NCBI GenBank assembly: GCA_903839085.1
Contig: CAIMBE010000172.1
Location: 1-35,149, forward strand
Length of the DNA: 35,149 bases
DNA from: an uncultured beta proteobacterium
Lineage (GTDB): Bacteria; Pseudomonadota; Gammaproteobacteria; Burkholderiales; Burkholderiaceae_C
Direction of reading: 5' to 3'
Shown one piece after another: positions 12,444 to 34,044 of the stretch. Numbering within the stretch: position 1 is the stretch's first letter; each line of letters begins with the position of its first letter. The notes beneath the pieces were generated by a model. That model was not told where the DNA came from, ran no database searches, and saw only the letters and a program-made list of their open reading frames with translations. The position numbers and the translations under genes were made by a program.

Positions 12444-12470
12444 CGACGCAAGCGGGCTGCGCTGGCGGCC

Positions 12471-17681: not shown

Positions 17682-17705
17682 GCAGAATCAGTCGATAGCC
17701 CGCAG

Positions 17706-17763
17706 AAGGGTAAGGGTAAGTCCGAGTCTGCTGGCTCCATCTAAGAAGCTATGCTGGCCCTTG
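17706..17763 (+). promoter_or_regulatory. Candidate tauA control region with direct repeats
   Basis: The 169-bp gap before tauA has three elements. AAGGGT is repeated head to tail at 17706-17720. CTGGCTCCAT at 17731 and CTGGCCCTTG at 17754 form a direct repeat spaced 23 bp, about two helical turns. A possible -10 box, TATGCT, lies at 17750-17755 with no good -35, as expected for an activator-dependent promoter. MocR regulators usually bind direct repeats overlapping the -35 region, so these are the best TauR site candidates. Inference from position and repeat structure. Confidence 0.4.
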
Positions 17764-17850
17764 TGGCGCTGCTACGCTGCGTCCACCATGCAGTGCGCGC
17801 CGACACCTTTGGCGCGAACCATTCCACGATTCGACATACAGGAGCAATCG

Positions 17851-18852
17851 ATGAAGATGAACAAGCGTCAGATGTTGTGTGCGGCAAGCGCCGCCTTGCT
17901 GGCCTGCGGCAGCGTTTCGGCCCAAACCAAGGAAGTGACGTTCGCGCACCAGGACATGCTGGTACCCCTGCGCACCGTGATGGAATCGGGCGAGTTGGAG
18001 AAGGCCACCGGATACAAAATCAACTGGCGCATGTTCGGCGGTGGCGGCGACGTCATCAAGGCCATGGCATCGGGCGATGTGCATATCGGCGAGGCCGGGT
18101 CGAGTCCGGTGACCGCTGCCGCCAGTCAGGGCCAGGCCATCAAGCTGTTCTGGATCCTCGATGACATCGCCGATGCCGAGGCCCTGATCGCGCGCAACGG
18201 CTCCAACGTCAACAGCATGAAGGATTTGAAGGGCAAGAAGGTCGCCACGCCGTTTGTCTCGACCGCGCATTACCAGTTGATGGTCGGCATGAAGCTCGAA
18301 GGCGTGGACGCAAAGGGCGTCAACGTGATGAATATGCGCCCGCCCGAGATCGCCGCCGCATGGGAGCGCGGCGACATCGATGCCGCGTTCATCTGGGACC
18401 CGGTGCTGAGCAAGATCAAGGGCAACGGCAAGGCGATCGCCACCTCCGGCAGCATCGGCAAGAAGGGCTACCCCACGTTCGACGGACTGATCGTCAGCTC
18501 CAAATGGGCGGCCGAAAACGAGGGTTTCATGGTGGCTTTGGTGAAAGCGCTGGCCAAGGCTGACGACGAATACCGCAAGAACGTTGCCAAGTGGACGGTC
18601 GATTCACCGCAGGTCAAGGCAGTCGCCAAATGGACCAAGGCCGACGCCAAGGATGTGCCCCCATCAATGATGCTGTACAAGTTTCCGACCCTGCAAGAAC
18701 AGATGTCTGCCGCATGGCTGGGCGGTGGCGCCGCCAAGGCGATGACGAACACGGCTGCCTTTCTGAAGGAGCAGGGCCGCATCCAGGAAGTGAAAGCGGA
18801 CTACGGCGCTTTCGTGACCGACGCCTACGTGAAAAAGGCGATGGCCAAGTAG
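17851..18852 (+). CDS. tauA: Taurine ABC transporter, periplasmic substrate-binding protein
   Basis: 333 residues with a signal peptide (MKMNKRQMLCAASAALLACG, likely cut after SVSA). The mature protein has the TauA pattern: GSGDVHIGEAGSSPVTAAASQG-like region (MASGDVHIGEAGSSPV), ATPFVSTAHYQLMVGMK and PPEIAAAWERGDIDAAFIWDPVL, all matching the taurine/aliphatic sulfonate-binding family and closer to TauA than SsuA by the PFxSTxHY and PPxIxAAWxRGDID elements. It delivers taurine to the TauBC membrane complex. The ATG at 17851 follows AGGAG by about seven bases. An intrinsic terminator lies between it and tauB, so the binding protein is probably made in excess over the rest of the transporter. Confidence 0.92.
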   Translation: MKMNKRQMLCAASAALLACGSVSAQTKEVTFAHQDMLVPLRTVMESGELEKATGYKINWRMFGGGGDVIKAMASGDVHIGEAGSSPVTAAASQGQAIKLFWILDDIADAEALIARNGSNVNSMKDLKGKKVATPFVSTAHYQLMVGMKLEGVDAKGVNVMNMRPPEIAAAWERGDIDAAFIWDPVLSKIKGNGKAIATSGSIGKKGYPTFDGLIVSSKWAAENEGFMVALVKALAKADDEYRKNVAKWTVDSPQVKAVAKWTKADAKDVPPSMMLYKFPTLQEQMSAAWLGGGAAKAMTNTAAFLKEQGRIQEVKADYGAFVTDAYVKKAMAK

Positions 18853-18890
18853 ACGGCCAACGAATAGTTGCTGGCAGGCCTCCTGCGGCA

Positions 18891-18924
18891 GGGGCAACCT
18901 CTTCGCAGGTTCGCCCCTTTTTTT
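18891..18924 (+). terminator. Intrinsic terminator between tauA and tauB
   Basis: The arms GGGGCAACCT and AGGTTCGCCCC pair with a single bulged G around a CTTCGC loop, immediately followed by seven T residues. This is a textbook Rho-independent terminator on the plus strand, 38 bp after the tauA stop and 26 bp before the tauB start. Partial readthrough would give a high tauA to tauBC ratio. Confidence 0.85.
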
Positions 18925-18950
18925 GAACCTGATCATTTTCAGAGCCATTT

Positions 18951-19739
18951 ATGCCCATCCTCGAAGTCAGGGATCTGACCGTCAACTACGCGACCAAGAT
19001 CGGCATCTTGCAGGCGCTTGCGCCGGTCAATCTCAAGCTGCGCGATGGTGACTTCATGGTGGCACTGGGCGCCTCCGGGTGCGGCAAGACGACCCTGCTG
19101 AACTGCATCGCAGGCTTTTTGCCACCATCAACCGGCGAGATCCTGCTCGATGGCGCCCCGGTCACCGGACCAGGCGCCGACCGCGGCGTGGTTTTTCAGA
19201 AGCACGCGCTGCTGCCCTGGCTTTCGGTGCGCGATAACGTGGCGCTGGGCTTGCGCATGCGCGGAGTTGACGCAACAACGCGTGCGCGCATTGCGCAGGA
19301 GAAACTGAGCCTGGTGGGCCTGCAGGACTACCCCAACCGTTCGGTCTATGAATTGTCGGGCGGCATGCAGCAGCGGGTCGGCATCGCCCGCGCGCTGGCA
19401 AGCGACCCGGCGGTGCTGCTGATGGACGAGCCGATGGGCGCGCTCGATGCATTCACGCGTGAGTCGGTTCAGGAGATCCTCTTGCGGGCCTGGTCCAAGT
19501 CAAACAAGATCGTGTTCTTCATCACCCACTCGGTCGAGGAGGCGCTGTTCCTGTCGACACGGCTGATCCTGATGAGCCCGAGTCCGGGACGCATCACGCA
19601 TGTCTACGACAACGTTCCGTTCTCGCGCGAATTCCTGGCCCATGGCGATGCCCGCAAGGTGAAGTCGGAGCCCGAATTCATCCGCATGCGCGAGGAGGTG
19701 TTGGCTATCGTCCATCAACGCAAGGCTGCCCATGTCTGA
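18951..19739 (+). CDS. tauB: Taurine ABC transporter, ATP-binding protein
   Basis: 262 residues, a nitrate/sulfonate/taurine-type ABC ATPase. Walker A is GASGCGKTT (residues 39-47), the Q-loop is [14 protein letters not shown], the signature is [15 protein letters not shown] and Walker B is [17 protein letters not shown], with the switch His in [10 protein letters not shown]. It powers taurine import from the inner face of the membrane. The start at 18951 has only a weak RBS. Its last codons overlap the tauC start by 8 bp, so translation of the two is coupled. Confidence 0.93.
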
Positions 19740-20550
19740 AGCTCCCAAAACGGCCCTCAAGACCAGCGCGTTCAAGGTTCCAGGAGAGGGATCGAGCGCC
19801 ACCATCAGCGTTGTCACGATGGTCATCATTCTGGTCTTTTGGTTTGTGATCACCAACATGGGCTGGATCAAACCTTTGTTCCTGCCCTCGCCCCAGGCCA
19901 CCTTTCAGCAGTTTTATGAATACCTGACCGGCGCAGCCAACGACAAGCCGCTCTGGCAGCATTTTGCGGCCAGCATGATGCGCGTGTTTGCGGCGTTTTT
20001 TCTGGCCTGCCTGCTGGCGATTCCGGTTGGAATCGGAATGGGCATGTCACGCATCTGGCGCGGCATTTTCGACCCGCCGATCGAACTCTATCGGCCCTTG
20101 CCGCCGCTGGCCTATCTGCCCCTGATCATCATCTGGTTCGGCATCGACGAACTGCCCAAGGTGCTGCTGATTTTCCTGAGTTGCTTTGCGCCGCTGGCGA
20201 TGGCGGCGCGCTCCGGTTTGCGCAGCGCGTCGCAGGAGCAGATGAACGCCGCCTACTCGATGGGCGCCAGTTATGGGCAGGTGATTCGCCATGTCGTGCT
20301 GCCGGCGGCACTGCCCGAGATTCTGGTCGGCATGCGGGTCTCGATCGGCTTTGGCTGGAGCACGCTGGTCGCGGCCGAGATGGTCGCTGCCAATGTGGGC
20401 CTGGGACAAATGGTTCTCAACGCCTCGAACTTTCTGCGCACCGACATCGTTGTCATGGGCATCATCGTGATCGGCGTGGTGGCCTACATGTTCGACCTGC
20501 TGATGCGCTGGATCGAGCGCCGGCTGGTGCCATGGCAAGGCCGCATGTAG
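19732..20550 (+). CDS. tauC: Taurine ABC transporter, permease
   Basis: 272 residues, with about six membrane segments starting at [20 protein letters not shown]. The ABC-coupling (EAA-type) loop is visible as [40 protein letters not shown], the site that docks on TauB. The N-terminal 20 residues are soluble, as in other TauC/SsuC proteins. The start overlaps the tauB stop (ATGTCTGA). The gene is convergent with tpa, with 48 bp between stops. Confidence 0.93.
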
Positions 20551-20558
20551 CGCATCGC

Positions 20559-20581: not shown

Positions 20582-20598
20582 CGACCTCGCCGCAACCC

Positions 20599-21993
20599 TC
20601 AGAACTTTTCAATCGCCGCTTTGACGGCTGCCACGATTTCGTCGATGTCTTCCCTGGTTGCAATCAGGGCCGGCGCGAAATTCATGATCGTGTTGTTGCC
20701 CGGCAGGCTGCTGCTGGTGCGTCCCACCAGAACGCCCTGCGCGGCCACCAGGCCCATCATGCGGGCCATCTCGGCCTCGCTGATCGGTTCCTTGGTCTGC
20801 TTGTCTTTCACAAACTCGATGCCGCAGAAAAGGCCGATGCCGCGCACATGGCCGACGATCGGCCTGTCGCTCAGGGCCTGGAGTTCGGCGAGCAGGTAGG
20901 CGCCGACGACGCGGCTGTTTTCCACCAAATTCTCGTCCTCGATGATGCGCGTGCTCTCCAGCGCAGCGGTGGTTGCGCCGGCACACCCGCCATAGGTGCT
21001 GATGTCGCGGAAGTAGTTCATCCTCTCGGCCGGATTGTTCGGCTCGCACAGGAACTTGTCGAATATCTCCTGGCGCACCGCCATTGCCGAGAGCGGCATG
21101 TACGAACTGGCCAGCCCCTTGGCCATGGTGACGATGTCCGGATCCACGTCGAACTGGTCATGGCCCCAGAACTTTCCGGTGCGGCCGAATCCGCACACCA
21201 CCTCATCCATGATCAGGTAGACGCCGTACCGCTTGCAAATCTCCTGCAGAATCGGGTAGTACTCCGGCACCGGCACGATGATGCCGCCGCCCGCCGTGAT
21301 CGGCTCGACGATGCAGCCGCCCACGCTGTCCGGGCCTTCCTTGAGGATCACGTCTTCCACGCTTCGGGCACACTCGATGTTGCAGCCCGGGTAGCTCTTG
21401 CCCATCGGGCAGCGGTAACAAAGCGGGTGGGGAATCTGGGCGAAGCCCTCGGCAAAGGGGCCGTAATCCTGCTTGCGCTCGGACTGGCCGGTGGCGCTGA
21501 GGGCGCCGATGGTCGTGCCATGGTAGTCGCGGTCACGAAACAGGATCTTGTACTTTCCCTTCCTGGCCGGATCGATGTGGGAAAGCTGCCGCACGACCTT
21601 GAATGCCTTTTCATTGGCCTCCGAACCGCTGTTGGAGAAGAACACCTTGCCCAGACGGGGCAGCAGTTCAATCAATTTGGCGGCGAACTTGATGGTCGGC
21701 ACGTTGCCCGCAGTTCCGGCGTAATAACCCAGGGTTTTCAATTGCTCGTATACCGCGGCGGCGATGCTTTCCCGCCCGTGGCCCACCATCACGCTCCACA
21801 CGCCGCCGGAAGTCGCATCGAGGTATTCACGGCCGCGAATGTCCTTGACGCGCAGCCCCTTGCCCTCCACGATGATCATCTGTTCGGCGCTCTGGAAGAC
21901 CTTGTGCGGCTTGATGTGATGCCACAGAAAGTCGCGATCGTCGCGCACGATGTCGTCTGCGATGTACTCCAGCCAATTGGTTTCGTTACCCAT
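20599..21993 (-). CDS. tpa: Taurine-pyruvate aminotransferase
   Basis: 464 residues, class III aminotransferase. The Schiff-base lysine is Lys292 in IVTMAKGLASSYMPLSAM, the ring-binding Asp is Asp263 in IMDEVVCGFGRTG, and FSNSGSEANEKA (119-130) binds the PLP phosphate. A four-cysteine stretch CYRCPMGKSYPGCNIEC (Cys192, 195, 204, 208) is characteristic of this subgroup. The expected reaction is taurine plus pyruvate to sulfoacetaldehyde plus alanine, feeding Xsc. Placement between tauABC and xsc supports the assignment. The start is the ATG at 21993, with AGGAG ten bases upstream. It lies 166 bp downstream of the IclR gene on the same strand; the gap carries a small CAAACGGTTTG palindrome at 22035-22045 and may hold a separate promoter. 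Confidence 0.9.
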   Translation of the reverse strand: MGNETNWLEYIADDIVRDDRDFLWHHIKPHKVFQSAEQMIIVEGKGLRVKDIRGREYLDATSGGVWSVMVGHGRESIAAAVYEQLKTLGYYAGTAGNVPTIKFAAKLIELLPRLGKVFFSNSGSEANEKAFKVVRQLSHIDPARKGKYKILFRDRDYHGTTIGALSATGQSERKQDYGPFAEGFAQIPHPLCYRCPMGKSYPGCNIECARSVEDVILKEGPDSVGGCIVEPITAGGGIIVPVPEYYPILQEICKRYGVYLIMDEVVCGFGRTGKFWGHDQFDVDPDIVTMAKGLASSYMPLSAMAVRQEIFDKFLCEPNNPAERMNYFRDISTYGGCAGATTAALESTRIIEDENLVENSRVVGAYLLAELQALSDRPIVGHVRGIGLFCGIEFVKDKQTKEPISEAEMARMMGLVAAQGVLVGRTSSSLPGNNTIMNFAPALIATREDIDEIVAAVKAAIEKF

Positions 21994-22034
21994 GATCGTG
22001 TGGCTCCTGGTGTTGACCGATGCACCGCATATGC

Positions 22035-22045
22035 CAAACGGTTTG
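22035..22045. promoter_or_regulatory. Small palindrome CAAACGGTTTG upstream of tpa
   Basis: Perfect five-base arms around one base, 42 bp upstream of the tpa start, in the 166-bp gap between the IclR gene and tpa. It could be an operator or chance; it does not match the TTCCG/CGGAA sites near xsc. Confidence 0.25.
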
Positions 22046-22159
22046 CGGCGTGCGGCACGATCCTATCATCGTCCCGGCATCAATTGAGGGGCCAGTTGCC
22101 CTGTGTTTGAAGGACCAGATACCCCGGGTTTTGGCGCCCGCACCAGCGAGCGCCGCGCC

Positions 22160-22981
22160 TCATGTGGCGGCTTTGCTCGCGGGCACTGCCGCAGCGTCGA
22201 TCGCCGCGATGGCGTTCGCCGCGCGCTGCAGCGCCGGGAGGAACTGCAGCGCCTTGTCGCGCGAAACGCGCATCACCGGCGCCTGGATGGCGACACCCGT
22301 GTTCGAGCGCCCCAGCGGGCGTGGCACGAGTAGGGCGATGCAGAAAAGCCCCGGCAGAAATTCCTCGTTGTCGATCGCATAGCCGTCGCGCCGGACCGCC
22401 TCGACCTCCCGCTCCAGGGCCTCGAAGTCGGTCACCGTGCGCGCCGTGTACTGCTCCAGCGGTGCCTGGTCAAGCAGGCGCCGGCGCTGGCTGGGCGTCA
22501 TCTGCGCCAGAAAAAGCTTGCCGCTGGCCGAGCAGTGCGCCGGCACGCGCGAGCCCGGGTGGAGATAAAAGCGCAGCGGCGCCTGTGTTTCCACGCGATC
22601 GAGGTAGAGGACCTCGCTCCCCGAGAGCGCCGTGATGTTGCAGCTCTCACCGACCTCCTCGACCAGCTTGCGCAGCACCGCATGGCGCGCACCATGCACC
22701 GTGTTGTTGAGCAGGACGTCCTCGGCAAGGCGGCGCAGTCGCAGACCGGCGCCATAGAACCGGCCCTGCGCATCGCGCTGCAGGATCGCGGCGCTTTCAA
22801 GTTGCTGCAGCATGCGGTGCAAGGTGGCTTTGGGCAGCCCCGTTTCCTCGACCAGCCCTTGCAGGGAGAAGAACTGGTCCTTGCGGGCGATGACCTCCAG
22901 CAGCGAAAACAGGCGCAACACCGGCGTGTCGCCGTCCAGACTGGATGGTTCCTGGATCGGATTTGGTTTCGTTTTGTCCAT
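22160..22981 (-). CDS. IclR-family transcriptional regulator of the taurine genes
   Basis: 273 residues. The N-terminal winged helix-turn-helix is VLRLFSLLEVIARKDQFFSLQGLVEETGLPKATLHRMLQQLESAAIL, the standard IclR layout, and the C-terminal GAF-like effector domain contains LYLDRVETQAPLRFYLHPGSRVPAHCSASGKLFLAQ and YAIDNEEFLPGLFCIALLVPRP. The ATG at 22981 is preferred over an upstream TTG. The gene is divergent from xsc (162 bp between starts) and upstream of tpa on the same strand, so it most likely senses taurine or sulfoacetaldehyde and controls both. It is a second regulator beside the MocR-type protein. Whether it activates or represses cannot be read. Confidence 0.9.
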   Translation of the reverse strand: MDKTKPNPIQEPSSLDGDTPVLRLFSLLEVIARKDQFFSLQGLVEETGLPKATLHRMLQQLESAAILQRDAQGRFYGAGLRLRRLAEDVLLNNTVHGARHAVLRKLVEEVGESCNITALSGSEVLYLDRVETQAPLRFYLHPGSRVPAHCSASGKLFLAQMTPSQRRRLLDQAPLEQYTARTVTDFEALEREVEAVRRDGYAIDNEEFLPGLFCIALLVPRPLGRSNTGVAIQAPVMRVSRDKALQFLPALQRAANAIAAIDAAAVPASKAAT

Positions 22982-23008
22982 GATGGCTTGATCATAGATT
23001 ATTTTTGT

Positions 23009-23099
23009 TTCCGGTATCAATTGTTCCGATTTTTGTTAATTGTTATTGACTTCGGAAATTCGCAACCCTAGAATTGATCCAAGTTCCGATAAATGGAAC
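23009..23099. promoter_or_regulatory. Cluster of TTCCG/CGGAA sites in the IclR-xsc gap
   Basis: Four related sites are seen: TTCCGGTAT at 23009, TTCCGAT at 23024, the palindrome TTCGGAA at 23051-23057, and GTTCCGATAAATGGAAC at 23083-23099 with perfect five-base arms. IclR-family operators are often short palindromes of GGAA/TTCC type. One site overlaps the -35/spacer and one begins at the expected start of transcription of xsc, positions suited to repression; the two upstream ones could autoregulate the IclR gene. Function is inferred. Confidence 0.6.
23046..23074 (+). promoter_or_regulatory. Sigma-70 promoter of xsc
   Basis: TTGACT at 23046-23051 and TAGAAT at 23069-23074 are separated by 17 bp, close to the sigma-70 consensus. 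Transcription would begin near 23081, about 63 bases before the xsc ATG. A TTCGGAA palindrome overlaps the end of the -35 box. Confidence 0.7.
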
Positions 23100-23143
23100 C
23101 TTTTGTGGCGTTTTTCCAAATCAACTCCAGAGGAGATCAAGAG

Positions 23144-24955
23144 ATGAGCAAAGCTGACAATCGCAAGGTGACAGAGGGGCCAACCCGAATGACCCCGTCC
23201 GAGGCCTTCGTCGAGACCTTGGTGGCCAATGGCGTCACCGAAATGTTCGGCATCATGGGCTCGGCCTTCATGGACGCGATGGACATCTTCGCGCCCGCCG
23301 GCATCCGCCTGATTCCGGTGGTGCACGAGCAGGGCGCCGGCCACATGGCCGACGGCTATTCGCGCGTCTCCGGCCGGCACGGTGTCGTGATCGGGCAGAA
23401 CGGTCCGGGCATCAGCAACTGCGTCACGGCAATAGCCGCCGCCTACTGGGCGCACAGCCCGGTGGTGGTGATCACGCCCGAGACCGGCACCATGGGCATG
23501 GGCCTGGGCGGCTTCCAGGAGGCGCACCAGCTGCCCATGTTCCAGGAGTTCACCAAGTACCAGGGCCATGTCAACAACAACAAACGCATCGCCGAGTACA
23601 CCGCACGCTGCTTCGACCGTGCGCACTCGGAACTTGGCCCGACCCAGCTCAATATCCCGCGCGACCTGTTCTACGGCGAGCTGACCTGCGAGATCCCCAA
23701 GCCGATGCGCCTGGATCGCGGCGCCGGCGGCGAGGCCAGCCTGGCCGCTGCGGCCGAACTGCTGGCCACGGCCAAGGCGCCCGTGCTGATCGCCGGCGGC
23801 GGCGTGGTGATGGGCGACGCCTACGCCGAATGCATCGCGCTGGCCGAGCGGCTGGGTTGCCCGGTCGTCAACAGCTACCAGCACAACGATTCGTTCCCCG
23901 CCAGCCATCCGCAATGGTGCGGCCCGCTCGGCTACCAGGGCAGCAAGGCCGGCATGAGGCTGATCAGCGAGGCCGACGTCGTGATCGCGCTCGGTTCGCG
24001 CCTCGGCCCGTTCGGCACCCTGGCGCAGTACGGCATGGACTACTGGCCGAAGAACGCGCGCATCATCCAGATTGACGCCGACCACAAGATGCTGGGCCTG
24101 GTCAAGAAGATCGACGTCGGCATCTGCGGTGACGCCAAGGCCGCGGCTGTCGCGCTGAGCGCGCGCCTGGCCGGCAGGACGCTGGCCTGCGACGCGACGA
24201 GGGCTGAGCGCGCCGCACGCACCGCTGCCGAGAAGGCCGCCTGGGAGGCGGAACTCGCGGGCTGGACGCACGAGCGAGACGCCTACAGCCTTGACATGAT
24301 TGAGGAGGCAAAAGGCGAGAAGACTCCCGACGGCGGCCAGTGGCTGCACCCGCGCCAGGTGCTGCGCGAGCTGGAAAAAGCCATGCCGCGCGACGTGATG
24401 GTATCCACCGACATCGGCAACATCAACTCGGTGGCGCACAGTTACCTGCGCTTCGAGCGACCGCGCAGCTTTTTTGCGCCGATGAGCTATGGCAACTGCG
24501 GCTACGCCTTCCCGACCATCATCGGTGCCAAGGTCGCGGCGCCCGATAGGCCGGCCATCTCGTATGCCGGCGACGGCGCATGGGCCATGAGCATGGGCGA
24601 AATCATGACCTGTGTGCGTCACGACATACCGGTCACCGCAGTCGTGTTCCACAATCGCCAGTGGGGCGCCGAGAAGAAGAACCAGGTCGATTTCTACAAC
24701 CGCCGCTTCGTTGCCGACGAACTCGATAACCCCAGTTTTGCCGCCGTTGCCCGGGCCATGGGGGCCGAGGGCATCGTGGTCGACCGGCTCGAGGACGTCG
24801 GCGCTGCCCTGAAACGGGCTGTGGACCTGCAGATGAACCAGCGCAAGACCTGCATTGTCGAGATCATGTGCAACCGCGAACTGGGCGATCCGTTCCGCCG
24901 CGATGCGCTGGCCATGCCGGTGCGCATGCTTGAGAAGTACAAGGACTACGTCTGA
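23144..24955 (+). CDS. xsc: Sulfoacetaldehyde acetyltransferase
   Basis: 603 residues, a thiamine-diphosphate enzyme of the acetolactate synthase superfamily with the length of Xsc. The catalytic Glu for ThDP activation is Glu62 in VVHEQGAGHMADGYSR. The ThDP/Mg motif is AGDGAWAMSMGEIM (GDG at 476-478) ending at Asn504 in VVFHNRQWGAEKKNQ, and FGIMGSAFMDAMDIFAPAG and GNINSVAHSYLRF are typical of Xsc. Reaction: sulfoacetaldehyde plus phosphate to acetyl phosphate plus sulfite. The ATG at 23144 has a strong AGAGGAG eight bases upstream. No phosphotransacetylase gene follows, unlike in many xsc loci, so acetyl phosphate must be used by an enzyme encoded elsewhere. It is convergent with the G3E GTPase gene, with 19 bp between stops. 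Confidence 0.95.
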   Translation: MSKADNRKVTEGPTRMTPSEAFVETLVANGVTEMFGIMGSAFMDAMDIFAPAGIRLIPVVHEQGAGHMADGYSRVSGRHGVVIGQNGPGISNCVTAIAAAYWAHSPVVVITPETGTMGMGLGGFQEAHQLPMFQEFTKYQGHVNNNKRIAEYTARCFDRAHSELGPTQLNIPRDLFYGELTCEIPKPMRLDRGAGGEASLAAAAELLATAKAPVLIAGGGVVMGDAYAECIALAERLGCPVVNSYQHNDSFPASHPQWCGPLGYQGSKAGMRLISEADVVIALGSRLGPFGTLAQYGMDYWPKNARIIQIDADHKMLGLVKKIDVGICGDAKAAAVALSARLAGRTLACDATRAERAARTAAEKAAWEAELAGWTHERDAYSLDMIEEAKGEKTPDGGQWLHPRQVLRELEKAMPRDVMVSTDIGNINSVAHSYLRFERPRSFFAPMSYGNCGYAFPTIIGAKVAAPDRPAISYAGDGAWAMSMGEIMTCVRHDIPVTAVVFHNRQWGAEKKNQVDFYNRRFVADELDNPSFAAVARAMGAEGIVVDRLEDVGAALKRAVDLQMNQRKTCIVEIMCNRELGDPFRRDALAMPVRMLEKYKDYV

Positions 24956-24974: not shown

Positions 24975-25907
24975 TCACAGCCCCAGTCGCGAGAAGAACC
25001 GGGCATCCGAGTTCATTTGTTCCTTCAGACCGATAACGACCAGACGGGGACTGCCTGGCGCGGGGGCGGCATCGATTTGCCAGCGCCCCGCGCTGACCTG
25101 CAGTGAGCAGCCGCGGCCATGCGCGTCCACAGCCAGCGCCTTGGCCCGCAAAACACCGCTGCCGGGCGCTGCCAGGGCGCGCGCCAGCGCCGAGAGGTCG
25201 ATATTCGCTGGCAGTGTGAAGCTTCTGCTGGCAAAAACAGACATCGCGGAGCGCCGGCTCCAACCGATCGGCCTGCCCGCCATCGCCGCTGACGCACGCG
25301 AGGCGTCGGTCGCGTCAGCGCGCCAGCCCAGCACCAGAGCCGGTTCAATCTCGCGGGCGCCGCAGACCATGACCCGTGCCTGCGGCGCTGTCTCTGCCAG
25401 CCAGGTCGCCAGCGTGCGCGCCGGGTCCGGGCGCGCGAGGTCTGATTTGTTGAGCAGGATCCAGTCTGCGTCACGCAGTTGTTGGTGCACCGTCTCGCCG
25501 ACGTAGCGGTCGCTGGCCTGCCGCTCGATGGCAGATGCGTCGGCTAGCACCAGGGTGCCGGCCACCTCAACGGCTGGCGCCAGTTTGATGCTGCGTGAAA
25601 CAGGGCGCGGCAATGCCACTCCGCTGAGTTCGATCACCACCACGTCGGGTCGCGCAGCGCCCTGCGCCAGCGCCTGCAGCGTGCCCACCAGATCATCGCC
25701 AAAGCTGCAGCACAGGCAGCCGCCGCTCAGGCTCACGACGCCGGCCGCAGCGCCTTCGATGAGGTCGGCATCAATGTTGATCTCACCAAAGTCGTTCACC
25801 AGCACCGCCACGCGGCGTCCGCCCGCGTTGCGCAGCAGATGGTTGATCAGCGTGGTCTTGCCGGCACCAAGATAGCCACCGATGATGACGACAGGCAGCC
25901 TGCTCAA
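24975..25907 (-). CDS. G3E-family (COG0523/CobW-like) GTPase, probable metallochaperone
   Basis: 310 residues. Walker A is GYLGAGKTT (residues 11-19), the metal-site motif is GGCLCC (Cys64, Cys66, Cys67), the Mg/Walker B-like element is VVVIELSGVA, and the guanine-specificity motif is NKSD (153-156). A short CobW C-terminal domain follows. Proteins of this family use GTP to place Zn, Co, Ni or Fe into client enzymes, and some activate nitrile hydratase. The start is a TTG at 25907, chosen because the conserved N-terminus begins directly there; its RBS (GAAGG) overlaps the stop codon of the amidohydrolase gene, giving translational coupling. The natural client is therefore the amidohydrolase encoded 9 bp upstream. 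The metal is not known. Confidence 0.87.
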   Translation of the reverse strand: MSRLPVVIIGGYLGAGKTTLINHLLRNAGGRRVAVLVNDFGEINIDADLIEGAAAGVVSLSGGCLCCSFGDDLVGTLQALAQGAARPDVVVIELSGVALPRPVSRSIKLAPAVEVAGTLVLADASAIERQASDRYVGETVHQQLRDADWILLNKSDLARPDPARTLATWLAETAPQARVMVCGAREIEPALVLGWRADATDASRASAAMAGRPIGWSRRSAMSVFASRSFTLPANIDLSALARALAAPGSGVLRAKALAVDAHGRGCSLQVSAGRWQIDAAPAPGSPRLVVIGLKEQMNSDARFFSRLGL

Positions 25908-25916
25908 GACAAGCCT

Positions 25917-27548
25917 TCAGCCGGCCTGAAAGACCCGCCCCTCCTGCACCGTGCCCCAGACTGCGACATCTTTCAATGCCTGCGGATTGACAGCGGTCGG
26001 GTCCTCCTCCAACACGCAAAAATCAGCCCGTTTACCGCATTCAATGGAACCGACCTCGCCATCGAGCTTGAGTGTGGCGGCCGCCCCAAGGGTGATGGCC
26101 CGCAACGCGTCGGGCACACCGATTCGCTCCTGCGCACCGAGCACGCGACCCGACGCAGTCAGGCGATTGACAGCACACCAGGCGGTAAACAAGGGCCCCA
26201 AAGGCGTGATCGGAGCGTCTGAATGGATCGCAAAGGGAACGCCTTCGCGCATCGCAGACCGGCAGGCGTTCATGCGCTCCGAGCGCTCCGGCCCGACGGT
26301 CGTCGCGTAGTGCTGATCGCCCCAATAGAAATGGTGATTGGCAAACAGATTGACATGCATGCCCAGGGGCTTCATGCGGCGAAATTGCGCGGCGTCCGCC
26401 AACTGGCAATGCTGCAGCGTGAACCGGTGGTCCGATGCAGCGCAGGTGCGCAGCGCGGCTTCCATCGCGTCCAGCGCCATGTCGATCGCCTCGTCGCCAT
26501 TGGTGTGGGTGTGCACCTGAACGCCGCTTTGCAGCGCATGCACATAGAGCTCGCGCAGCGTCTCCGGTGGCATGTACCACAGGCCGTTGGGGGCGCCATT
26601 GAAATAGCCGGGCCACCGAATGCGGGCCGAAAATCCCTGGATCGACCCGTCCGCCACGGCCTTGATGCGCCCCAAGCGCAACTGGTTGGTGCTGCGGGCC
26701 TCCAGCGCCTTGGCGCGTTCCACCGCGTCCTTCGGACGGGCGCCAAAAAGCCGCAACAGCGGCACCAGGCGCAGCGGATAGTCGGCGCCTGAGGTCACGC
26801 GCAGCATGGTGCCTAGCTCATCGTCGGACAGCAGAGCCGCCATGTCGGTGGCGGTGGTGACGCCTGCAGTGACGCACAGTTTGGCGAAATTTTCCAGGCC
26901 CACTTCGTCGGCGGACAGGAATGACGCTCCCATGCCCAGATGGGGCATCACCGGCAGCATCGCCTCCGGCCCCTTCAATTCACCAGTGGGAAGGCCGTCT
27001 GCGCCCAGCGGATATCCCGGGTGTTCAATGCCTGTGCGCAAGAGACCCGCGCGTTCCAGTGCGCAACTGTTGGCGTTCAGAATGTGGCCGCTGGCATGCA
27101 AGATAGCGACCGGCCGCTCGCTGCTGACCCGGTCCAGATCGCCGCGTGCGCAGCGCGCGGCGCCGAAGTAAATGGGGTCGAATCCCCAGCCCACGAGCGC
27201 GTTCCCGGCCCGGTCTCGCGCGGCGCTGCTCAACGCGGCAATCACGGCATCCAGTGTCTTCAATCCCGGCCAGATCCGCCCCCGGGGATCGGTCACGTCA
27301 AAGTAGCCGCAATACACATGCCGCCACAGGGATCCGGCCATCGAATGGCTGTGGGCCTCGATCAGCCCCGGCATCAGCACCTTGTCGGCAAACTGCGTGC
27401 TCAGCGTGTACGCGCCCCAGGCGGCCAGCTCGTCAAGCGTTCCGGCGCCCAGAATGCGGCCATCACGCACCGCCACGTGGGTGACATCAGGACGTGCCGC
27501 GTTCATGGTCAGAATGCGACGGGCTTGGTAAATCGTGGTGCTGTTCAT
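25917..27548 (-). CDS. Metal-dependent amidohydrolase (YtcJ-like)
   Basis: 543 residues from the chosen start. The N-terminal small beta-sandwich is followed by a TIM barrel with the first metal motif PGLIEAHSHS (His66, His68). Later motifs are HTHTNGDEAIDMALDAM (metal His and acidic residues), LQHCQLAD and FAIHSDAPITPLGPL (C-terminal metal Asp in HSD). The overall order matches the YtcJ/N-substituted formamide deformylase-like group of the amidohydrolase superfamily, which hydrolyses C-N amide-type bonds. The ATG at 27548 was chosen from family alignment of the N-terminus; an in-frame ATG at 27578 would add ten Pro-rich residues, and neither start has a clear RBS. It forms an operon with the G3E GTPase gene and is divergent from an XRE-cupin regulator. 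No signal peptide is seen, so it should be cytoplasmic. Confidence 0.88.
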   Translation of the reverse strand: MNSTTIYQARRILTMNAARPDVTHVAVRDGRILGAGTLDELAAWGAYTLSTQFADKVLMPGLIEAHSHSMAGSLWRHVYCGYFDVTDPRGRIWPGLKTLDAVIAALSSAARDRAGNALVGWGFDPIYFGAARCARGDLDRVSSERPVAILHASGHILNANSCALERAGLLRTGIEHPGYPLGADGLPTGELKGPEAMLPVMPHLGMGASFLSADEVGLENFAKLCVTAGVTTATDMAALLSDDELGTMLRVTSGADYPLRLVPLLRLFGARPKDAVERAKALEARSTNQLRLGRIKAVADGSIQGFSARIRWPGYFNGAPNGLWYMPPETLRELYVHALQSGVQVHTHTNGDEAIDMALDAMEAALRTCAASDHRFTLQHCQLADAAQFRRMKPLGMHVNLFANHHFYWGDQHYATTVGPERSERMNACRSAMREGVPFAIHSDAPITPLGPLFTAWCAVNRLTASGRVLGAQERIGVPDALRAITLGAAATLKLDGEVGSIECGKRADFCVLEEDPTAVNPQALKDVAVWGTVQEGRVFQAG

Positions 27549-27886
27549 GGTGCGTAAAGGGGGGGGCGTCAGGGTCATGGCCGATGGGGCGGTGACGCAT
27601 TATGTTGCTTTGCCCGCAGCGCAAGAAGGCGGGTAAACACCGAGAAGAAAATGAAATTTTGCATGTAAATTTCACGTCAGGCAGGTTGCCGTCCTGGCCT
27701 TCCATCTCCATGCTTCTTTCGACGGACTCCGCGCATCAACGGTTCACGATCTTCATTGCGATGACATTCAACTGATCTTTTCAAATTGGACAACGACCTG
27801 CAACCCTCCTGTCCCGAAGAGCGGATTTTCGCCAACGGTGAGTTCGCGGGCGTCATGGCAGCGGCCATTTCCAGGATTCGCGGCTG
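27549..27886. other. 338-bp divergent intergenic region between amidohydrolase and XRE-cupin regulator
   Basis: No gene is supported here. The region is more AT-rich than its surroundings around 27640-27680 and 27740-27795. It contains a perfect 23-bp palindrome at 27652-27674 (listed separately) and a run of eight G at 27559-27566. It must hold the promoters for both divergent genes; I could not assign clear -35 and -10 boxes. Confidence 0.5.
27652..27674. promoter_or_regulatory. Perfect 23-bp palindrome, candidate XRE-cupin operator
   Basis: Arms TGAAATTT and AAATTTCA are perfect over eight bases, separated by TGCATGT. The site lies in the divergent gap, 104 bp from the amidohydrolase start and about 213 bp from the regulator start. 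Its length and symmetry fit a homodimeric helix-turn-helix protein. The nearest regulator is the XRE-cupin protein encoded next door, so it is the likely binder. Confidence 0.6.
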
Positions 27887-28486
27887 ATGAAGACCGAGTT
27901 GACAGCAGCAGCCCGACTGCCGGATCACGGCGCTGTGCTGGGGCGCCAGATCCGTGACCTGCGCAAGGCCCGAGGCCTCACCTTGCAGGACCTTGCAGCA
28001 CGCGTCGAGCGCTCGCTGGGATCGCTGAGCCAGATCGAGCGCGGCATGTCGCCGGTTTCCATCTCTGCGCTCGATGCCATCGCCCAGGCACTTGGGGTGG
28101 AACTTTCATGGTTCTTCGCGCAGGGCACGCCGCCAGATCCCGATGAATTGGCCATGGTGGTTCGCAAACGCCATCGCCGAGTGCTCGATTTTTGCGGCTC
28201 CGGCGTGCGCGAGGAGTTGCTGACGCCGACCTTTGGCAATCAGTTGCTGCTCATGGAGTCGACATTCGCCCCGGGTGCGAGCACCGGCGACCGGGACCGT
28301 GAGCGCCGCGGCGACGAGGCCGGCGTGGTGCTGCGCGGCAGCTTGCAACTCTCGGTCGAGGGGCGCACACTGCTGCTCAGGGCGGGCGACAGCTTTGCTT
28401 TCAAGCGCCACGGACCGCATCGTTGTCATAACCCGGGTCGGGTGCCCGCCGTTGTGCTCTGGGTCGTCACCCCGCCTTCTTATTGA
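27887..28486 (+). CDS. XRE-family regulator with C-terminal cupin domain
   Basis: 199 residues. The helix-turn-helix lies at about residues 18-72 (LGRQIRDLRKARGLTLQDLAARV, SLSQIERGMSPVSISALDAIAQALGV), followed by a cupin domain (about 105-197) with GVVLRGSLQLSVEGRTLLLRAGDSFAF and HGPHRCHNPG. XRE-cupin proteins usually sense small molecules and control transport or catabolic genes for amines, amino acids or amides. The gene is divergent from the amidohydrolase-GTPase pair and 45 bp upstream of the Dpp-like importer, so it probably controls both. The ATG at 27887 has only a weak RBS. Confidence 0.9.
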   Translation: MKTELTAAARLPDHGAVLGRQIRDLRKARGLTLQDLAARVERSLGSLSQIERGMSPVSISALDAIAQALGVELSWFFAQGTPPDPDELAMVVRKRHRRVLDFCGSGVREELLTPTFGNQLLLMESTFAPGASTGDRDRERRGDEAGVVLRGSLQLSVEGRTLLLRAGDSFAFKRHGPHRCHNPGRVPAVVLWVVTPPSY

Positions 28487-28531
28487 TTGAGTCCGAATTT
28501 CGTTCAATGCCAGTTCACCCGTAAAGGAAAA

Positions 28532-30130
28532 ATGTCCATGTCTTTCATTTCACGTCGTCAATTGATACAGGCCTCGGCCGCCACGTCGGTCGGTTCCTTG
28601 CTGGGAATTCCGTTGCAGGTACTCGCCCAGGCCGCCAAGGGCGGCGTTGTCGTCCTTGGCACCACGCAAAGGGCGCGCCACCTCAATCCCGCGGTGCAAA
28701 GCGGGATTGCGACCATGATTCCGGGCTCGCAATTGTTTGCATCACCGCTGCGCATGGATGCGAACTGGAAGCCCCAACCCTATCTGGCAGAGCGCTGGGA
28801 TTTGTCGACCGACTACCGCAGTCTGACCCTGTATCTGCGCAAGGATGCGGTGTTCCACGATGGCAAGCCGATTACCGCGGAAGACGTCAAATTTTCCCTG
28901 GAGACCATTCGCGACAACCATCCGTTCAAGTCGATGTACGAGCCGCTCAACAGTGTGACCATCGTCGACGCCCACACCGCGGTTCTTCGGCTGAGCGAGC
29001 CCCATCCGGCCTTGCTGCTGGCGATGTCCACCTCGCTCACACCGATCATCCCGAAGCACATCTTCGGCGACGGCACCGATGTCAAAGTGCACCCGCGCAA
29101 CGCCAGTCCGGTCGGCTCCGGCGCCTTCAAGATGGTCGAATACAAGCCGGGCGAACATCTCATCATGGAGCGCTTCGACCGCTTCTTCATGAAGGGTTTG
29201 CCCAAGCTCGAGCGCATCATCATCAAGGATTTCAAGGATCCCGCCAGCATGCTGCTGGCGTTTGAGCGCGGCGAAATCGATATGCAAGGCGTGAGCGATC
29301 CGCGTGAGATTGCCCGTGTTGCCAAACTGCCCAAGGTGCAATTGATCCGCAATGCGGCGCCGGCGGTCGGACCGCTGGTCTGGCTGGCCTTCAACACCAA
29401 GAACCCCAAGCTCGCCGACAAGCGCGTGCGCCAGGCCATCAGTTTCGCGATGGACCGCAAGTTCATCCTCGATTCGCTATTGGGTGGCGCGCACAAGGTG
29501 GCCACCGGCCCGATTGCCAGCGGCAGTCCGTTCTACAGCGCCGAGGTCGAGAAATACGAGCTGAATCTGGTCAAGGCCAACAAACTGCTCGACGATGCAG
29601 GCGTCAAGGCGGGAGCCGATGGCACCCGTTTTGCGCTGGAACTCGATACTTTGCCGGGCGTTCCTGAAATGAAGACCATCCAGGAGTACCTTAAACCAGC
29701 ACTGGCCAAAGTGGGGATTGCTGTCAACCTGCGCGTCTCGCCGGACTTCCCAAGCTGGGCGCGACGCGTGGCCACCTTCCAGTTCGAGGCGACCCTTGAC
29801 GCCGTCTACAACTGGGGCGACCCGGTGATTGGCGTGCACCGTACCTGGCTGACGTCCAACATCAAGCCGGGCGTGATCTGGTCCAACACGCAAAGCTACA
29901 GCAACACAAAAGTCGACGAGTTGTTGACATCGGCCGCCAAGGAAATGAACCTGGCAAAGCGCAAGGCACAGTACAAGGAAATGCAAAAGCTGGTGGTCGA
30001 CGATTGCCCGGCAGCCTTCATCTATGAGAGCGTTTCCTACGAGGCCTATGGCGCCAACGTGGTCAATCCGCCGCGCGGGATCTGGGGCATGGCGGACGCG
30101 CTCAACGACATGTCGATGCGCACTTCGTAG
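28532..30130 (+). CDS. ABC transporter substrate-binding protein, family 5 (peptide/nickel type)
   Basis: 532 residues. The N-terminus MSMSFISRRQLIQASAATSVGSLL carries a twin-arginine motif (SRRQLIQ) and a hydrophobic stretch ending LAQA, so a Tat or Tat-like export is expected. The body is a family 5 binding protein: YLAERWDLSTDYRSLTLYLRKDAVFHDGKPITAEDVKFSLE near 87-127 is the classic signature, and VRQAISFAMDRKFILDSLLGG lies further on. It should bind a peptide or similar solute in the periplasm and deliver it to the DppBC-like channel. The ATG at 28532 follows AAGGA by five bases. It is the first transporter gene after the XRE-cupin regulator. Confidence 0.9.
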   Translation: MSMSFISRRQLIQASAATSVGSLLGIPLQVLAQAAKGGVVVLGTTQRARHLNPAVQSGIATMIPGSQLFASPLRMDANWKPQPYLAERWDLSTDYRSLTLYLRKDAVFHDGKPITAEDVKFSLETIRDNHPFKSMYEPLNSVTIVDAHTAVLRLSEPHPALLLAMSTSLTPIIPKHIFGDGTDVKVHPRNASPVGSGAFKMVEYKPGEHLIMERFDRFFMKGLPKLERIIIKDFKDPASMLLAFERGEIDMQGVSDPREIARVAKLPKVQLIRNAAPAVGPLVWLAFNTKNPKLADKRVRQAISFAMDRKFILDSLLGGAHKVATGPIASGSPFYSAEVEKYELNLVKANKLLDDAGVKAGADGTRFALELDTLPGVPEMKTIQEYLKPALAKVGIAVNLRVSPDFPSWARRVATFQFEATLDAVYNWGDPVIGVHRTWLTSNIKPGVIWSNTQSYSNTKVDELLTSAAKEMNLAKRKAQYKEMQKLVVDDCPAAFIYESVSYEAYGANVVNPPRGIWGMADALNDMSMRTS

Positions 30131-30154
30131 CTGTTCCCCGCGCGCACCATTGCC

Positions 30155-31135
30155 GTGATTCGCCTGCTCTGGCTGATTGTTCGCCGTCTGGCGCTCGCCG
30201 CGGCCCTGGTGCTGTCGGTGCTGGCGGTCAATTTCATTCTGATCCACGCTGCGCCGGGTGACCCGGCGCAGGTGATTGCGGGTGAGATGGGCGGTGCCGA
30301 CGAGGCGGCCATGGCGAGCATCCGCAAGGCCTACGGGCTGGATCGTCCGCTGACGCAGCAGTTCATAACCTATATCGGCAAAAGCCTGCAAGGCGATCTG
30401 GGGCAGAGCTACACCTTCAACCGGCCCGTTTCTGAAATGATCCTGGATCGCCTCGGTCCGACGGTGATGCTGGTCATGACCGCCCTGCTCTGCGCGGTGC
30501 TGCTTGGGACTTTGCTTGGTGTCTGGGCCTCGCGGCGACCCGACAGCATGGTCAGCGGCGTGGTCACCGTGATGTCGCTGGTTGGCTATTCGATGCCCGT
30601 GTTCTGGACCGGCATCCTGCTGGTCATCCTGTTCGGCAAAGTCTGGCCCATCATGCCGATTGCCGGAATGCACGATGTGCGTCTGGTGGGCGCGAACGCA
30701 TGGGTCTCTGCCATGGATGTGCTGCACCATCTGGTGCTGCCAGCCCTGACGCTGACCCTGATCTATGTGGCGCAGTACAGCCGCCTGGCGCGCGCCAGCA
30801 TGCTCGAAATTCTGGGCTCGGACTACATCCGCACCGCCCGTGCCAAGGGCTTGAGCGAGGACGCAGTGACGTTCAAGCACGCCTTGCGCAATGCCCTGAT
30901 GCCGATCGTCACCGTCGTGGGCCTGCAGTTCGGCAATCTGATATCGGGCGCCGTGCTGGTTGAAACCGTGTTCTCCTGGCCCGGCCTGGGCACGCTGGCG
31001 CTCGATGCCATCCTGGGGCGCGACTACCCGACGCTGCTGGGCGTGCTGACCTTTTCCGCGGCGCTGGTGATTGTGGCCAACCTGCTGACCGATCTGAGCT
31101 ATCGCTGGATCGACCCGCGCTTGCGCGATCACTGA
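30155..31135 (+). CDS. Dpp/Opp-type ABC transporter permease (DppB-like)
   Basis: 326 residues with a GTG start. The first membrane segment LALAAALVLSVLAVNFILIH is followed by the typical HAAPGDPAQVI loop and RKAYGLDRPLTQQFITYIGKSLQGDLGQSYTFNRPV, which mark DppB/OppB proteins. The coupling motif is IRTARAKGLSEDAVTFKHALRNALMPIVTVVG. About six membrane segments are present. It sits 24 bp after the binding-protein gene and 7 bp before the second permease gene in one operon. No strong RBS precedes the GTG. Confidence 0.92.
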   Translation: MIRLLWLIVRRLALAAALVLSVLAVNFILIHAAPGDPAQVIAGEMGGADEAAMASIRKAYGLDRPLTQQFITYIGKSLQGDLGQSYTFNRPVSEMILDRLGPTVMLVMTALLCAVLLGTLLGVWASRRPDSMVSGVVTVMSLVGYSMPVFWTGILLVILFGKVWPIMPIAGMHDVRLVGANAWVSAMDVLHHLVLPALTLTLIYVAQYSRLARASMLEILGSDYIRTARAKGLSEDAVTFKHALRNALMPIVTVVGLQFGNLISGAVLVETVFSWPGLGTLALDAILGRDYPTLLGVLTFSAALVIVANLLTDLSYRWIDPRLRDH

Positions 31136-31142
31136 GGTCAGC

Positions 31143-32030
31143 ATGACCGTGAATCAGCCGCACCTTCCGAAGCCAGCGTTGCGGGCCAGTTCGCCCTGGC
31201 GCGAATCATGGCGCGTGTTTCGCAGCAACCGGGCTGCCGTTTTCGGACTGGCCCTGCTGCTTGCACTGGTTGCCATGATGCTGCTCGGACCTTACAGCTA
31301 CGGCGTCAAGGCCTTCGACATTGTGGCCGAACCGTTCACGGGCCCCTTCATCAACCCCCAAGTCTGGCTCGGCACCGACTATCTGGGCCGCGATGTGCTG
31401 GCCGGCGTCCTCATAGGGGGGCGAGCCACCCTGCTGGTGGGACTGGCTTCAGCGGCGTTGGCGGTCAGCATCGGCGTTACCGTGGGGGCGTCAGCCGGCT
31501 TCTTTGGCGGCTGGGTCGACACCTTGCTGACGCGCCTGATCGAGCTGTTTCAGGTGCTGCCGGCCTTGCTGCTGGCCATGGTGCTGGTGACCCTTTTTTC
31601 GCCGTCGCTGCAGGTCGTCATATTTGCCATCGGCATCGTCGCCTGGACCTCCACGGCACGGCTGGCGCGCGCCGAATTCATGCGCCTTCGCCACCTTGAG
31701 TACGTCAATGCGGCACGCACCATGGGCGCCGGGCCGGTGCGCTTGATGCTGCGCGAGATTCTGCCCAATGCCTTGCCGCCGCTGATTGTGTCTGCCACAT
31801 TGATCATCGGTTCCGCCATCCTTTTCGAGGCCGGGTTGAGCTATCTCGGCCTGTCTGATGCCAACGTGATGAGCTGGGGCATGATGATCGGCAACAACCG
31901 GCGTAATGTGCTCGACTGCTGGTGGGCGGTCACCTTTCCGGGTCTGGCCATTTTTGCCACCGTTTTGGCCGTCAGCCTGATTGGGGATGGCCTCAATGAC
32001 GCTTTCAATCCCAGATTGCAGTTGCGATGA
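31143..32030 (+). CDS. Dpp/Opp-type ABC transporter permease (DppC-like)
   Basis: 295 residues. The soluble N-terminus ends in [34 protein letters not shown], followed by the DppC/OppC marker [26 protein letters not shown]. The ABC-coupling motif is [30 protein letters not shown], and [21 protein letters not shown] closes the channel domain. It pairs with the DppB-like permease. The ATG at 31143 has GAGG six bases upstream, and the stop overlaps the next start as ATGA. Confidence 0.93.
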
Positions 32031-33028
32031 CCGATTCGCAAGCGCTACTGTCGGTGCAGGACTTGTCGGTCGAATTCAGGACACGACACGGCACCGCCAA
32101 CGTGCTCAATGGCGTCACTTTTTCCCTGCAGCGTGGCCAAACGCTGGCCGTCGTGGGCGAGTCGGGCTGCGGCAAGAGCGTGACCGCTCTGGCGGTGATG
32201 CGCCTGATTGCAGAGCCGCCCGGCCGCGTTGCGGCCGGGCGCGTGCTGTTTGACGGGCATGATCTTCTGAGACTGAGCGAGCCCGAGATGCGCCAGGTGC
32301 GGGGCAACCGCATCTCCATGATCTTCCAGGAGCCCATGACCTCGCTCAATCCGGCTTACACCGTGGGCAACCAGATTGCCGAGGCGGTGCGCTTGCATCA
32401 GGGAGGAGACTGGGGCGCCGCCATGGCGCGCGCGGTCGAGATGCTGGAGGCCGTGGGCATCCCCGCGCCGGGGCGCCGTGCGCATGAATACCCGCACCAA
32501 TTTTCGGGTGGCATGCGACAGCGGGTCATGATCGCCATGGCCCTGGCCTGCAAGCCCGACCTGCTGATTGCCGACGAGCCCACCACCGCGCTCGATGTGA
32601 CGGTACAGGCGCAGATTTTCGACCTGATTGCCGATCTGCGCGAGCGCACCGGTACCGCCGTCCTGCTCATCACGCACGACATGGGTGCCGTTGCCGAAAT
32701 GGCTGATCGCGTGGTGGTGATGTACGCCGGACACATCGTCGAGAGCGCTGAGGTCAGGGAAATACTGCAGTCACCGCTGCACCCCTATACCCGGGGGCTG
32801 ATTGCCTGCGCGCCGGGGGCGCGTTCGGTGCAGCCGGGCGAGTATCTGGAGGAAATTCCGGGAAGCGTGCCCTCGTTGCTGGAACGTGGCGCCGGCTGCA
32901 TGTTTGCCCAGCGCTGCCGCCAGGCCAGTCCACAGTGTTTTCAGACGCTGCCACCTCTGACCCGGATCGGTGCCGGACGCAGCGTCATGTGCTGGCTGCA
33001 TGCCCAGGCCGCGGAGGCAACCGCATGA
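32027..33028 (+). CDS. Dpp-type ABC transporter ATP-binding protein (DppD-like)
   Basis: 333 residues. Walker A is [14 protein letters not shown], the Q-loop is [20 protein letters not shown], the signature is [15 protein letters not shown] and Walker B is [16 protein letters not shown], followed by [23 protein letters not shown]. The C-terminal oligopeptide/dipeptide-transporter tail with [12 protein letters not shown] and a cysteine pattern ([15 protein letters not shown]) is present; in this family such cysteines can hold an iron-sulfur cluster. Its start overlaps the preceding permease stop by 4 bp, and its stop overlaps the next start by 4 bp. Confidence 0.94.
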
Positions 33029-34044
33029 CAGCGAGGGATATTGTGCTGTCGGTGCGCGACCTGAAGGTCTATTTCCCGATGGGCGGAGGTCTGCTGGGTC
33101 CTCGCGCTGCCGTGAAGGCTGTCGACGGTGTGAGTTTTGGCGTGCGCCGCGGCACCACCTTTGGCATCGTTGGCGAAAGCGGCTCGGGCAAGAGCACAAC
33201 CGCTCTGGCCATCATGCGCCTGGTCAAGATCACGGCCGGTGCGGTGAGGCTGGGCAGCACGGATATCGGTGCCCTCAAAGGTGATGCCTTGCGCCGCGAG
33301 CGGCACCGCTTCCAGATGGTATTTCAGGATCCCTACGCTTCGCTCAACCCGCGCACTCGCGTTGGCGATGCCATCCTTGAGGCGCTCAACCTGATGAATG
33401 TGGCGTCGGCTCATGAACGGCCCGAGCGCGCCAGGATGCTGTTTACCCAGATGGGCCTCACGGCCGAACAGATGTCGCTTTATCCGCACCAGTTTTCCGG
33501 CGGTCAGCGACAGCGCATTGTGCTGGCCCGTGCCCTGGCGGCGCACCCGGAGCTCGTGGTATGCGACGAGCCCGTCTCGGCGCTGGACGTGGCCATCCAG
33601 GCACAGATGCTCAATCTCATGCTGCGCCTGCAGCGCGAATTCGGCCTGACCTATCTCTTCATTTCACACGACCTGGGCGTCATTCGGCACATGTGCGATG
33701 AGGTGGCCGTGATGTATCTGGGGCGCATTGTGGAGCGCGCCGGCCGCGATGCCTTGTTTGCCCGGCCATTGCACCCCTATACGCTGGCGCTGTGGTCCGC
33801 CGCGCCCACCTTTGATCCGCAGGCGCGGGGACGCAGCCAGCGTATTCGGCTGCAAGGCGATCCGCCCAGCCCCATGAACGTACCCGACGGTTGCCGCTTT
33901 GCCGGACGCTGCCCCTTCGCCCAGACCGTCTGCCACAGCTCGGATCCGCCCCTGCGCGAAGTGGCCAGCGGTCATCTGGTCGCCTGCCACCGGGTCGCCG
34001 ACGATGGCACGCCAGGCTATGACGCCAAGGCATTGACCGGGTAG
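33025..34044 (+). CDS. Dpp-type ABC transporter ATP-binding protein (DppF-like)
   Basis: 339 residues. Walker A is [14 protein letters not shown], the Q-loop is [20 protein letters not shown], the signature is [15 protein letters not shown] and Walker B is [16 protein letters not shown], with [24 protein letters not shown] after it. The C-terminal tail has [12 protein letters not shown] and [15 protein letters not shown], the cysteine pattern expected of the family. The ATG at 33025 overlaps the DppD-like stop (ATGA); a longer in-frame upstream extension lies inside the previous gene and is not used. It completes the five-gene importer. Confidence 0.94.

Follow-up and report, generated by a model that had tools for sequence, protein, structure and literature searches.

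The neighbouring amidohydrolase and GTPase genes of the window, by which is meant the whole stretch of 35,149 nucleotides analysed here from an uncultured beta proteobacterium, are a further example of the naaS/naaT-type pair in a naa-like cluster and not a new system. In the gene listing excerpted from PMC4334477, the N-acetyltaurine genes of Ruegeria pomeroyi DSS-3 are naaS (SPO0658, N-acetyltaurine amidohydrolase), naaT (SPO0657, “Metallochaperone, putative”), the LysR gene naaR (SPO0659), and the transporter genes naaABB'CC' (SPO0660-0664). The first-pass annotation, made from the sequence alone, had taken the pairing for an undescribed one; this view does not survive, since both the pair and the guess at a metallochaperone were already in print in that listing. 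The pairing itself is widely conserved, and the GTPase is predicted from sequence to load the metal of its neighbour, which is its likely role. The least familiar result is a wider branch of COG0523 GTPases, most of whose sampled members are found with amidohydrolases of several kinds. A cluster with naaS/naaT for N-acetyltaurine was reportedly also described in Cupriavidus necator H16 by Denger et al. in 2011.

The Naa-like Cluster and Its Substrate

Compared by gene listing, the window and the R. pomeroyi cluster share an amidohydrolase gene with an adjoining putative metallochaperone gene (SPO0658/SPO0657 as listed) and the gene order of the transporter, the window carrying five genes for a Dpp/Opp-type ABC transporter (28487-34044, divergent from the pair) that are arranged as solute-binding protein, permease, permease, ATPase, and ATPase, as in SPO0660-0664 (PMC4334477, gene listing). 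Unlike that cluster as listed, the window has an XRE-cupin regulator and no LysR NaaR, and it holds xsc directly alongside the pair; LysR genes are seen in some roseobacter-type loci. Putative orthology to SPO0658/SPO0657 or the C. necator proteins is drawn from gene order and from family members that show 49-66% identity in transporter-bearing loci. The order ATPase, ATPase, permease, permease, solute-binding protein, LysR, amidohydrolase, GTPase was met at three loci (L080, L081, and L087), and two more (L059 and L076) have the transporter-LysR-amidohydrolase-GTPase order with one unlabelled gene call between, the LysR label being assigned by eye in all five; the same order recurs in two annotated Paracoccus plasmids. 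For the L-numbered loci these are minimum counts, as our own gene calls miss some genes. Of 83 loci searched, 42 gave a homologue of the solute-binding protein.

Xsc is a downstream step of taurine catabolism. Further along lies a taurine-type cluster (14588-23020), in which the best matches of tauB and tauC are taurine models, both scoring below cut-off (323.4 of 357 and 297.3 of 342, respectively), and which also holds a MocR-type regulator and an IclR regulator; neither of the class III aminotransferases in the window was identified as taurine:pyruvate aminotransferase (Tpa). The naa transporter order, together with xsc and tauABC nearby, suggests that the window probably encodes the use of N-acetyltaurine. 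Near the pair, xsc was also found in two Achromobacter loci (L102 and L104) and in Caballeronia L198. With window genes as queries, no taurine genes were detected near the pair outside Burkholderiales, and xsc or tauA/tauC lay within 20 kb on either side of it in none of 10 roseobacter-type genomes. The idea that taurine genes are a general part of the module was rejected, given that they were found near the pair in Burkholderiales only.

This distribution also bears on the alternative that the enzyme acts on some other N-acyl or peptide-like amide and that the naa label fits only part of the family. The importers differ among members (a Dpp/Opp-type ABC transporter or DUF3311 plus a sodium:solute symporter), and some genomes have two tandem amidohydrolase copies, both of which would suit another substrate, as would the lack of taurine genes in the loci just described. 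We nevertheless regard this alternative as rather unlikely, because the transporter order is that of the published naa cluster (PMC4334477, gene listing), xsc directly adjoins the window copy with tauABC further on, and a related YtcJ-like enzyme frees taurine from conjugates, according to an extract of PMC13081902.

Table 1. Features of the window in and around the naaS/naaT-type pair.
Feature	Position	Strand	Evidence or remark
Class III aminotransferase	14588-16078	+	In taurine-type cluster
Taurine ABC transporter tauA, tauB, tauC	17725..20550	+	tauA: TIGR01729, 351.7 bits (cut-off 304.25)
Class III aminotransferase	20599-21993	-	In taurine-type cluster
Sulfoacetaldehyde acetyltransferase Xsc	23093..24955	+	NCBIfam TIGR03457, 1025.1 bits (cut-off 676.4); convergent with GTPase gene
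COG0523/G3E GTPase, NaaT-type putative metallochaperone	24975..25907	-	Pfam cobW, 4.5e-45; TTG start, GGCLCC, NKSD, no His run
Junction of the pair	25905..25919	-	Sequence: AAGG Shine-Dalgarno-like stretch overlapping the upstream TGA stop; 9 nt from that stop to the TTG start
YtcJ-like amidohydrolase, NaaS-type (N-acetyltaurine amidohydrolase)	25917..27578	-	Pfam Amidohydro_3, 2.7e-68; likely start 27548
XRE-cupin regulator, at the place of LysR naaR in roseobacter loci	27887..28486	+	Pfam HTH_31/HTH_3 and Cupin_2; divergent
Family 5 solute-binding protein, naaA position	28487..30130	+	Pfam SBP_bac_5
ABC permease, naaB position	30155..31135	+	Pfam BPD_transp_1; order as in roseobacter loci
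ABC permease, naaB' position	31143..32030	+	Pfam BPD_transp_1 and OppC_N
ABC ATPase, naaC position	32027..33028	+	Pfam ABC_tran and oligo_HPY
ABC ATPase, naaC' position	32935..34044	+	Pfam ABC_tran and oligo_HPY

The Two Genes and Their Junction

The features read in the first pass were confirmed by open reading frames and Pfam: a YtcJ-like amidohydrolase gene is followed after 9 bp by a COG0523/G3E GTPase gene with a TTG start, GGCLCC and NKSD motifs, and a ribosome-binding site overlapping the upstream stop. The minus-strand sequence of the junction is ggcTGAaggcttgtcTTG; its AAGG stretch overlaps the stop codon of the amidohydrolase, and 9 nt (25908-25916) separate that stop from the TTG codon (25905-25907). 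The GTPase of 310 residues carries all four marks of COG0523 (G3E GTPases), namely Walker A (GYLGAGKTT), the Walker B glutamate (E93), NKxD (NKSD), and GCxCC (GGCLCC); NKxD is lost in some relatives. Its AF2 model (pLDDT 84.7) is matched among solved structures by YjiA at the top, followed by HypB and UreG. Assignment as a CobW or ZigA equivalog was rejected, the scores being 138 bits against an NCBIfam cut-off of 332.1 and 115.8 bits against 600, respectively.

The amidohydrolase reading frame spans 553 residues, and a later in-frame ATG at 27548 (MNSTTIY...) is favoured as its start because it agrees better with the starts of homologues. The ligands of a binuclear site of the amidohydrolase superfamily (HxH, Lys, His, His, and Asp) are present as H76, H78, K306, H358, H390, and D454, are kept in 68/68 sequences, and match the ligands of BwBSH1 in residue type and order (PMC13081902, extract). 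The window enzyme is taken to have a binuclear metal site with a probably carboxylated Lys306. An additional His356 was considered as a mark of GTPase-linked amidohydrolases and rejected, since it also occurs in some unlinked ones and is Gln in L093.

Conservation of the Pair

Conserved adjacency in relatives, by which the first-pass annotation had proposed to check its idea, was borne out at several taxonomic depths. Among 300 genomes of the order, the GTPase query gave 17 matches in 15 genomes, its own included, and the gene next upstream was an amidohydrolase of the window type or a relative (29-100% identity) in 16; at the seventeenth (L020, the same place as L167), it was a PRK09061-type amidohydrolase. 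Conversely, the amidohydrolase query gave 27 matches in 22 genomes of the same 300, the GTPase lying next downstream of 15 of the 16 amidohydrolases at 46% identity or more but of only one of the 11 at 37% or less. In a sample of the phylum, the GTPase stood next to 10 of 12 amidohydrolase matches. A scan of named genomes covered relatives at 51-73% identity, the best 80 of 257, whose titles name alpha-, beta-, and gammaproteobacteria. Among these best 80 of 257 loci, the GTPase is next downstream in 75, two contigs (L095 and L115) end too early to judge, and three loci (L072, L093, and L126) have no GTPase directly downstream. The 75 consist of 73 strict pairs, L057, where the contig ends within the GTPase gene, and L107, whose GTPase is in broken frames. 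Chance adjacency was rejected, conservation on this scale being far beyond chance.

The finer arrangement was followed in 83 counted pairs, window included (73 from the best 80 of the 257 named-genome loci, the other 10 from the sample of the phylum, with some genomes represented twice). With starts chosen by rule, the spacing falls between -11 and +9 nt in 73 of the 83 and is -4 in 35, the start codons of the GTPase being ATG (55), GTG (21), and TTG (7). The two genes overlap in 46 of the 83, and gaps near 400 nt occur in two. The motif GC.CC is present in every one of the 83 GTPases; a His run occurs in 13, the window protein not among them.

Some neighbourhoods have features of their own. 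In the L126 genome, the GTPase lies about 9.5 kb downstream of the amidohydrolase on the same strand, and the stretch that separates it from the intact amidohydrolase holds fragments of another, broken copy of that gene (12968-14038). At L072, a cytidine-deaminase-like gene (12002-12565) lies about 370 nt downstream of the amidohydrolase that has no adjoining GTPase. Tandem amidohydrolase copies were seen at L221, L224, and L225, two of these three tandems being without a GTPase alongside. On plasmid pNK83 of Caballeronia sp. NK8 (L198), a gene named “cobalt chelatase” and an AAA ATPase gene adjoin the pair in the opposite orientation.

Evidence for a Functional Tie

Over 72 pairs, the patristic distances of amidohydrolase and GTPase are correlated with r = 0.886, a value uncorrected for the species tree; the highest r among 1000 permutations was 0.155, and 32 of 69 splits are common to the two trees. 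One alphaproteobacterial family (apparently of roseobacter/Paracoccaceae type) was represented by a single genome for each genus; the amidohydrolase is present at E <= 1e-100 in 43 of these 198 genomes, and the GTPase adjoins it in 27 of 30 loci examined (one locus each from 30 of the 43). The three exceptions (G940, G981, and G998) have no GTPase within 20 kb on either side of the amidohydrolase, and each carries one (239-272 bits) elsewhere in the genome. These three GTPases group together (0.996) inside the linked group of the family in a quick FastTree, which is midpoint-rooted and has many weak forks. Nothing points more strongly to a functional tie than this retention of both genes in unlinked places. 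The evidence supports a GTPase that is tied specifically to this amidohydrolase clade, as the first-pass annotation had supposed, and the loading of metal is its likeliest role in view of the adjacency, the correlated divergence, the GCxCC motif in 83/83, and the unlinked co-retention in three genomes.

That the GTPase is merely co-inherited, the enzyme being metallated unaided and the GTPase helping only when metal is scarce or serving another client, seems improbable in the face of the near-fixed adjacency, the overlap of the genes in more than half of the counted pairs, and the GTPase kept in trans in the three family exceptions. Some genomes do fit this alternative, as they have the enzyme and no GTPase of the amidohydrolase-linked branch was found in them. 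G119, listed as 100% complete and with an enzyme of 47-49% identity, gave five COG0523 matches, of which four fall outside the branch and the fifth (85 bits) was left out of the tree. L072 and L093 belong to G670 and G671, which are given without completeness values, and in each of these two genomes the sole GTPase found likewise falls outside the branch. A YtcJ-like bile salt hydrolase, moreover, is active from E. coli, the main text of its report making no mention of a GTPase or chaperone (PMC13081902, extract). In Sinorhizobium meliloti, the CobW-like gene beside BrbF, an amide hydrolase of the creatininase type, can be deleted without riboflavin auxotrophy (PMC9478397, extract), so adjacency is not proof of need.

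Proposed Mechanism and Comparable Systems

Metal delivery by the GTPase is part of our preferred reading, which we consider fairly probable as a whole: a naa-type set for the import of N-acetyltaurine, its hydrolysis by a NaaS-type enzyme, and the passage of taurine to Xsc, with GTPase-aided supply of metal. The Dpp/Opp-like ABC transporter, of naaABB'CC' order, would import an N-acyl sulfonate, and the NaaS-type amidohydrolase would cleave N-acetyltaurine, the presumed substrate in the window organism, to acetate and taurine; taurine would be converted into sulfoacetaldehyde and then cleaved by Xsc. The NaaT-type GTPase, probably made from the same message as the amidohydrolase, would most likely deliver the metal to the new enzyme in a GTP-dependent step on which that enzyme may depend, comparable to UreG with urease and Nha3 with Fe-type nitrile hydratase. 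That the ABC transporter instead supplies the GTPase with a metal or metallophore, and does not import the substrate of the enzyme, is highly improbable: the binding protein has similar scores against a nickel model (NikA, 151.0 bits) and a peptide model (Opp4A, 151.3), and nickel binders are among its solved relatives, but it stays below the cut-off of every nickel model, the counterpart genes of R. pomeroyi are annotated as an N-acetyltaurine transporter (PMC4334477, gene listing), and a sodium:solute symporter replaces the ABC transporter in other members.

UreG is a G3E GTPase that matures urease, an enzyme of the amidohydrolase superfamily with a carboxylated lysine. The window pair resembles this system in combining a G3E GTPase with such an enzyme as its client, a role that is proposed here, and differs in having one gene only, whereas UreG is smaller and works with other urease accessory proteins (PMC2770081, extract). 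Nha3, the activator of Fe-type nitrile hydratase, is likewise a COG0523 GTPase devoted to one client, as is proposed for the window GTPase, although the client of Nha3 is no amidohydrolase (PMC9164220, extract). MetalloBSH of Bilophila wadsworthia is YtcJ-like, stimulated by Zn, and releases taurine from an amide, as is proposed for the window enzyme; unlike it, MetalloBSH is secreted, and neither GTPase nor chaperone appears in the main text of the paper (PMC13081902, extract).

A Wider Branch of COG0523

Searched with a GTPase profile, 349 genomes yielded 19 matches at or above 260 bits, of which 18 adjoin an amidohydrolase gene; the exception is G410, where the GTPase is present and no amidohydrolase of the NaaS kind was found at E <= 1e-60, a case that speaks against the functional tie. 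The types alongside are NaaS, another YtcJ-like enzyme (L163-L165), and PRK09061 (L167, L169, L170, and L172-L174). At 236-243 bits, an amidohydrolase was alongside in only one of 12 fetched loci (L181), a count made with five query types that could miss unlike ones. A search of 274 genomes of the class returned six GTPases at E <= 1e-75. Four of them, that of the window included, adjoin the NaaS type; at L155 the neighbour is a dihydropyrimidinase-like gene, and at L156 it is a metallo-beta-lactamase-fold gene, which is not an amidohydrolase. In a midpoint-rooted tree of 102 rows, the amidohydrolase-linked GTPases, together with L156, L171, and L142 (the GTPase of the L126 genome), form a branch of 80 rows (support 98/95) set apart from 22 other COG0523 proteins.

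Whether this branch consists of dedicated metal-loading GTPases for the amidohydrolase superfamily, serving NaaS-type, other YtcJ-like, and PRK09061 (D-aminoacylase-like) enzymes, seems to us evenly balanced. Were it so, N-acetyltaurine metabolism would be only the best-annotated case. Haas et al. (2009) published 15 subfamilies of COG0523, ten of them detailed in an additional file, and the word “amidohydrolase” is absent from the main text (PMC2770081, extract); the present branch may coincide with one of those ten. For many COG0523 GTPases, no client is known (PMC9164220, extract), and the pair supplies a candidate in the form of a catabolic, assayable enzyme in tractable bacteria, which would open metal delivery by COG0523 to direct test. 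The branch further suggests that some enzymes labelled just “amidohydrolase” have a loading factor of their own, which could matter when they are produced alone.

Other Genes of the Window

Two further stretches of the window deserve brief mention. At 8677-11441, the gene for a [2Fe-2S] protein is followed by that for a molybdopterin-binding dehydrogenase subunit, the two probably forming one oxidoreductase, and an open reading frame of 319 residues (34079-35038, minus strand) lies at the window edge beside the transporter.
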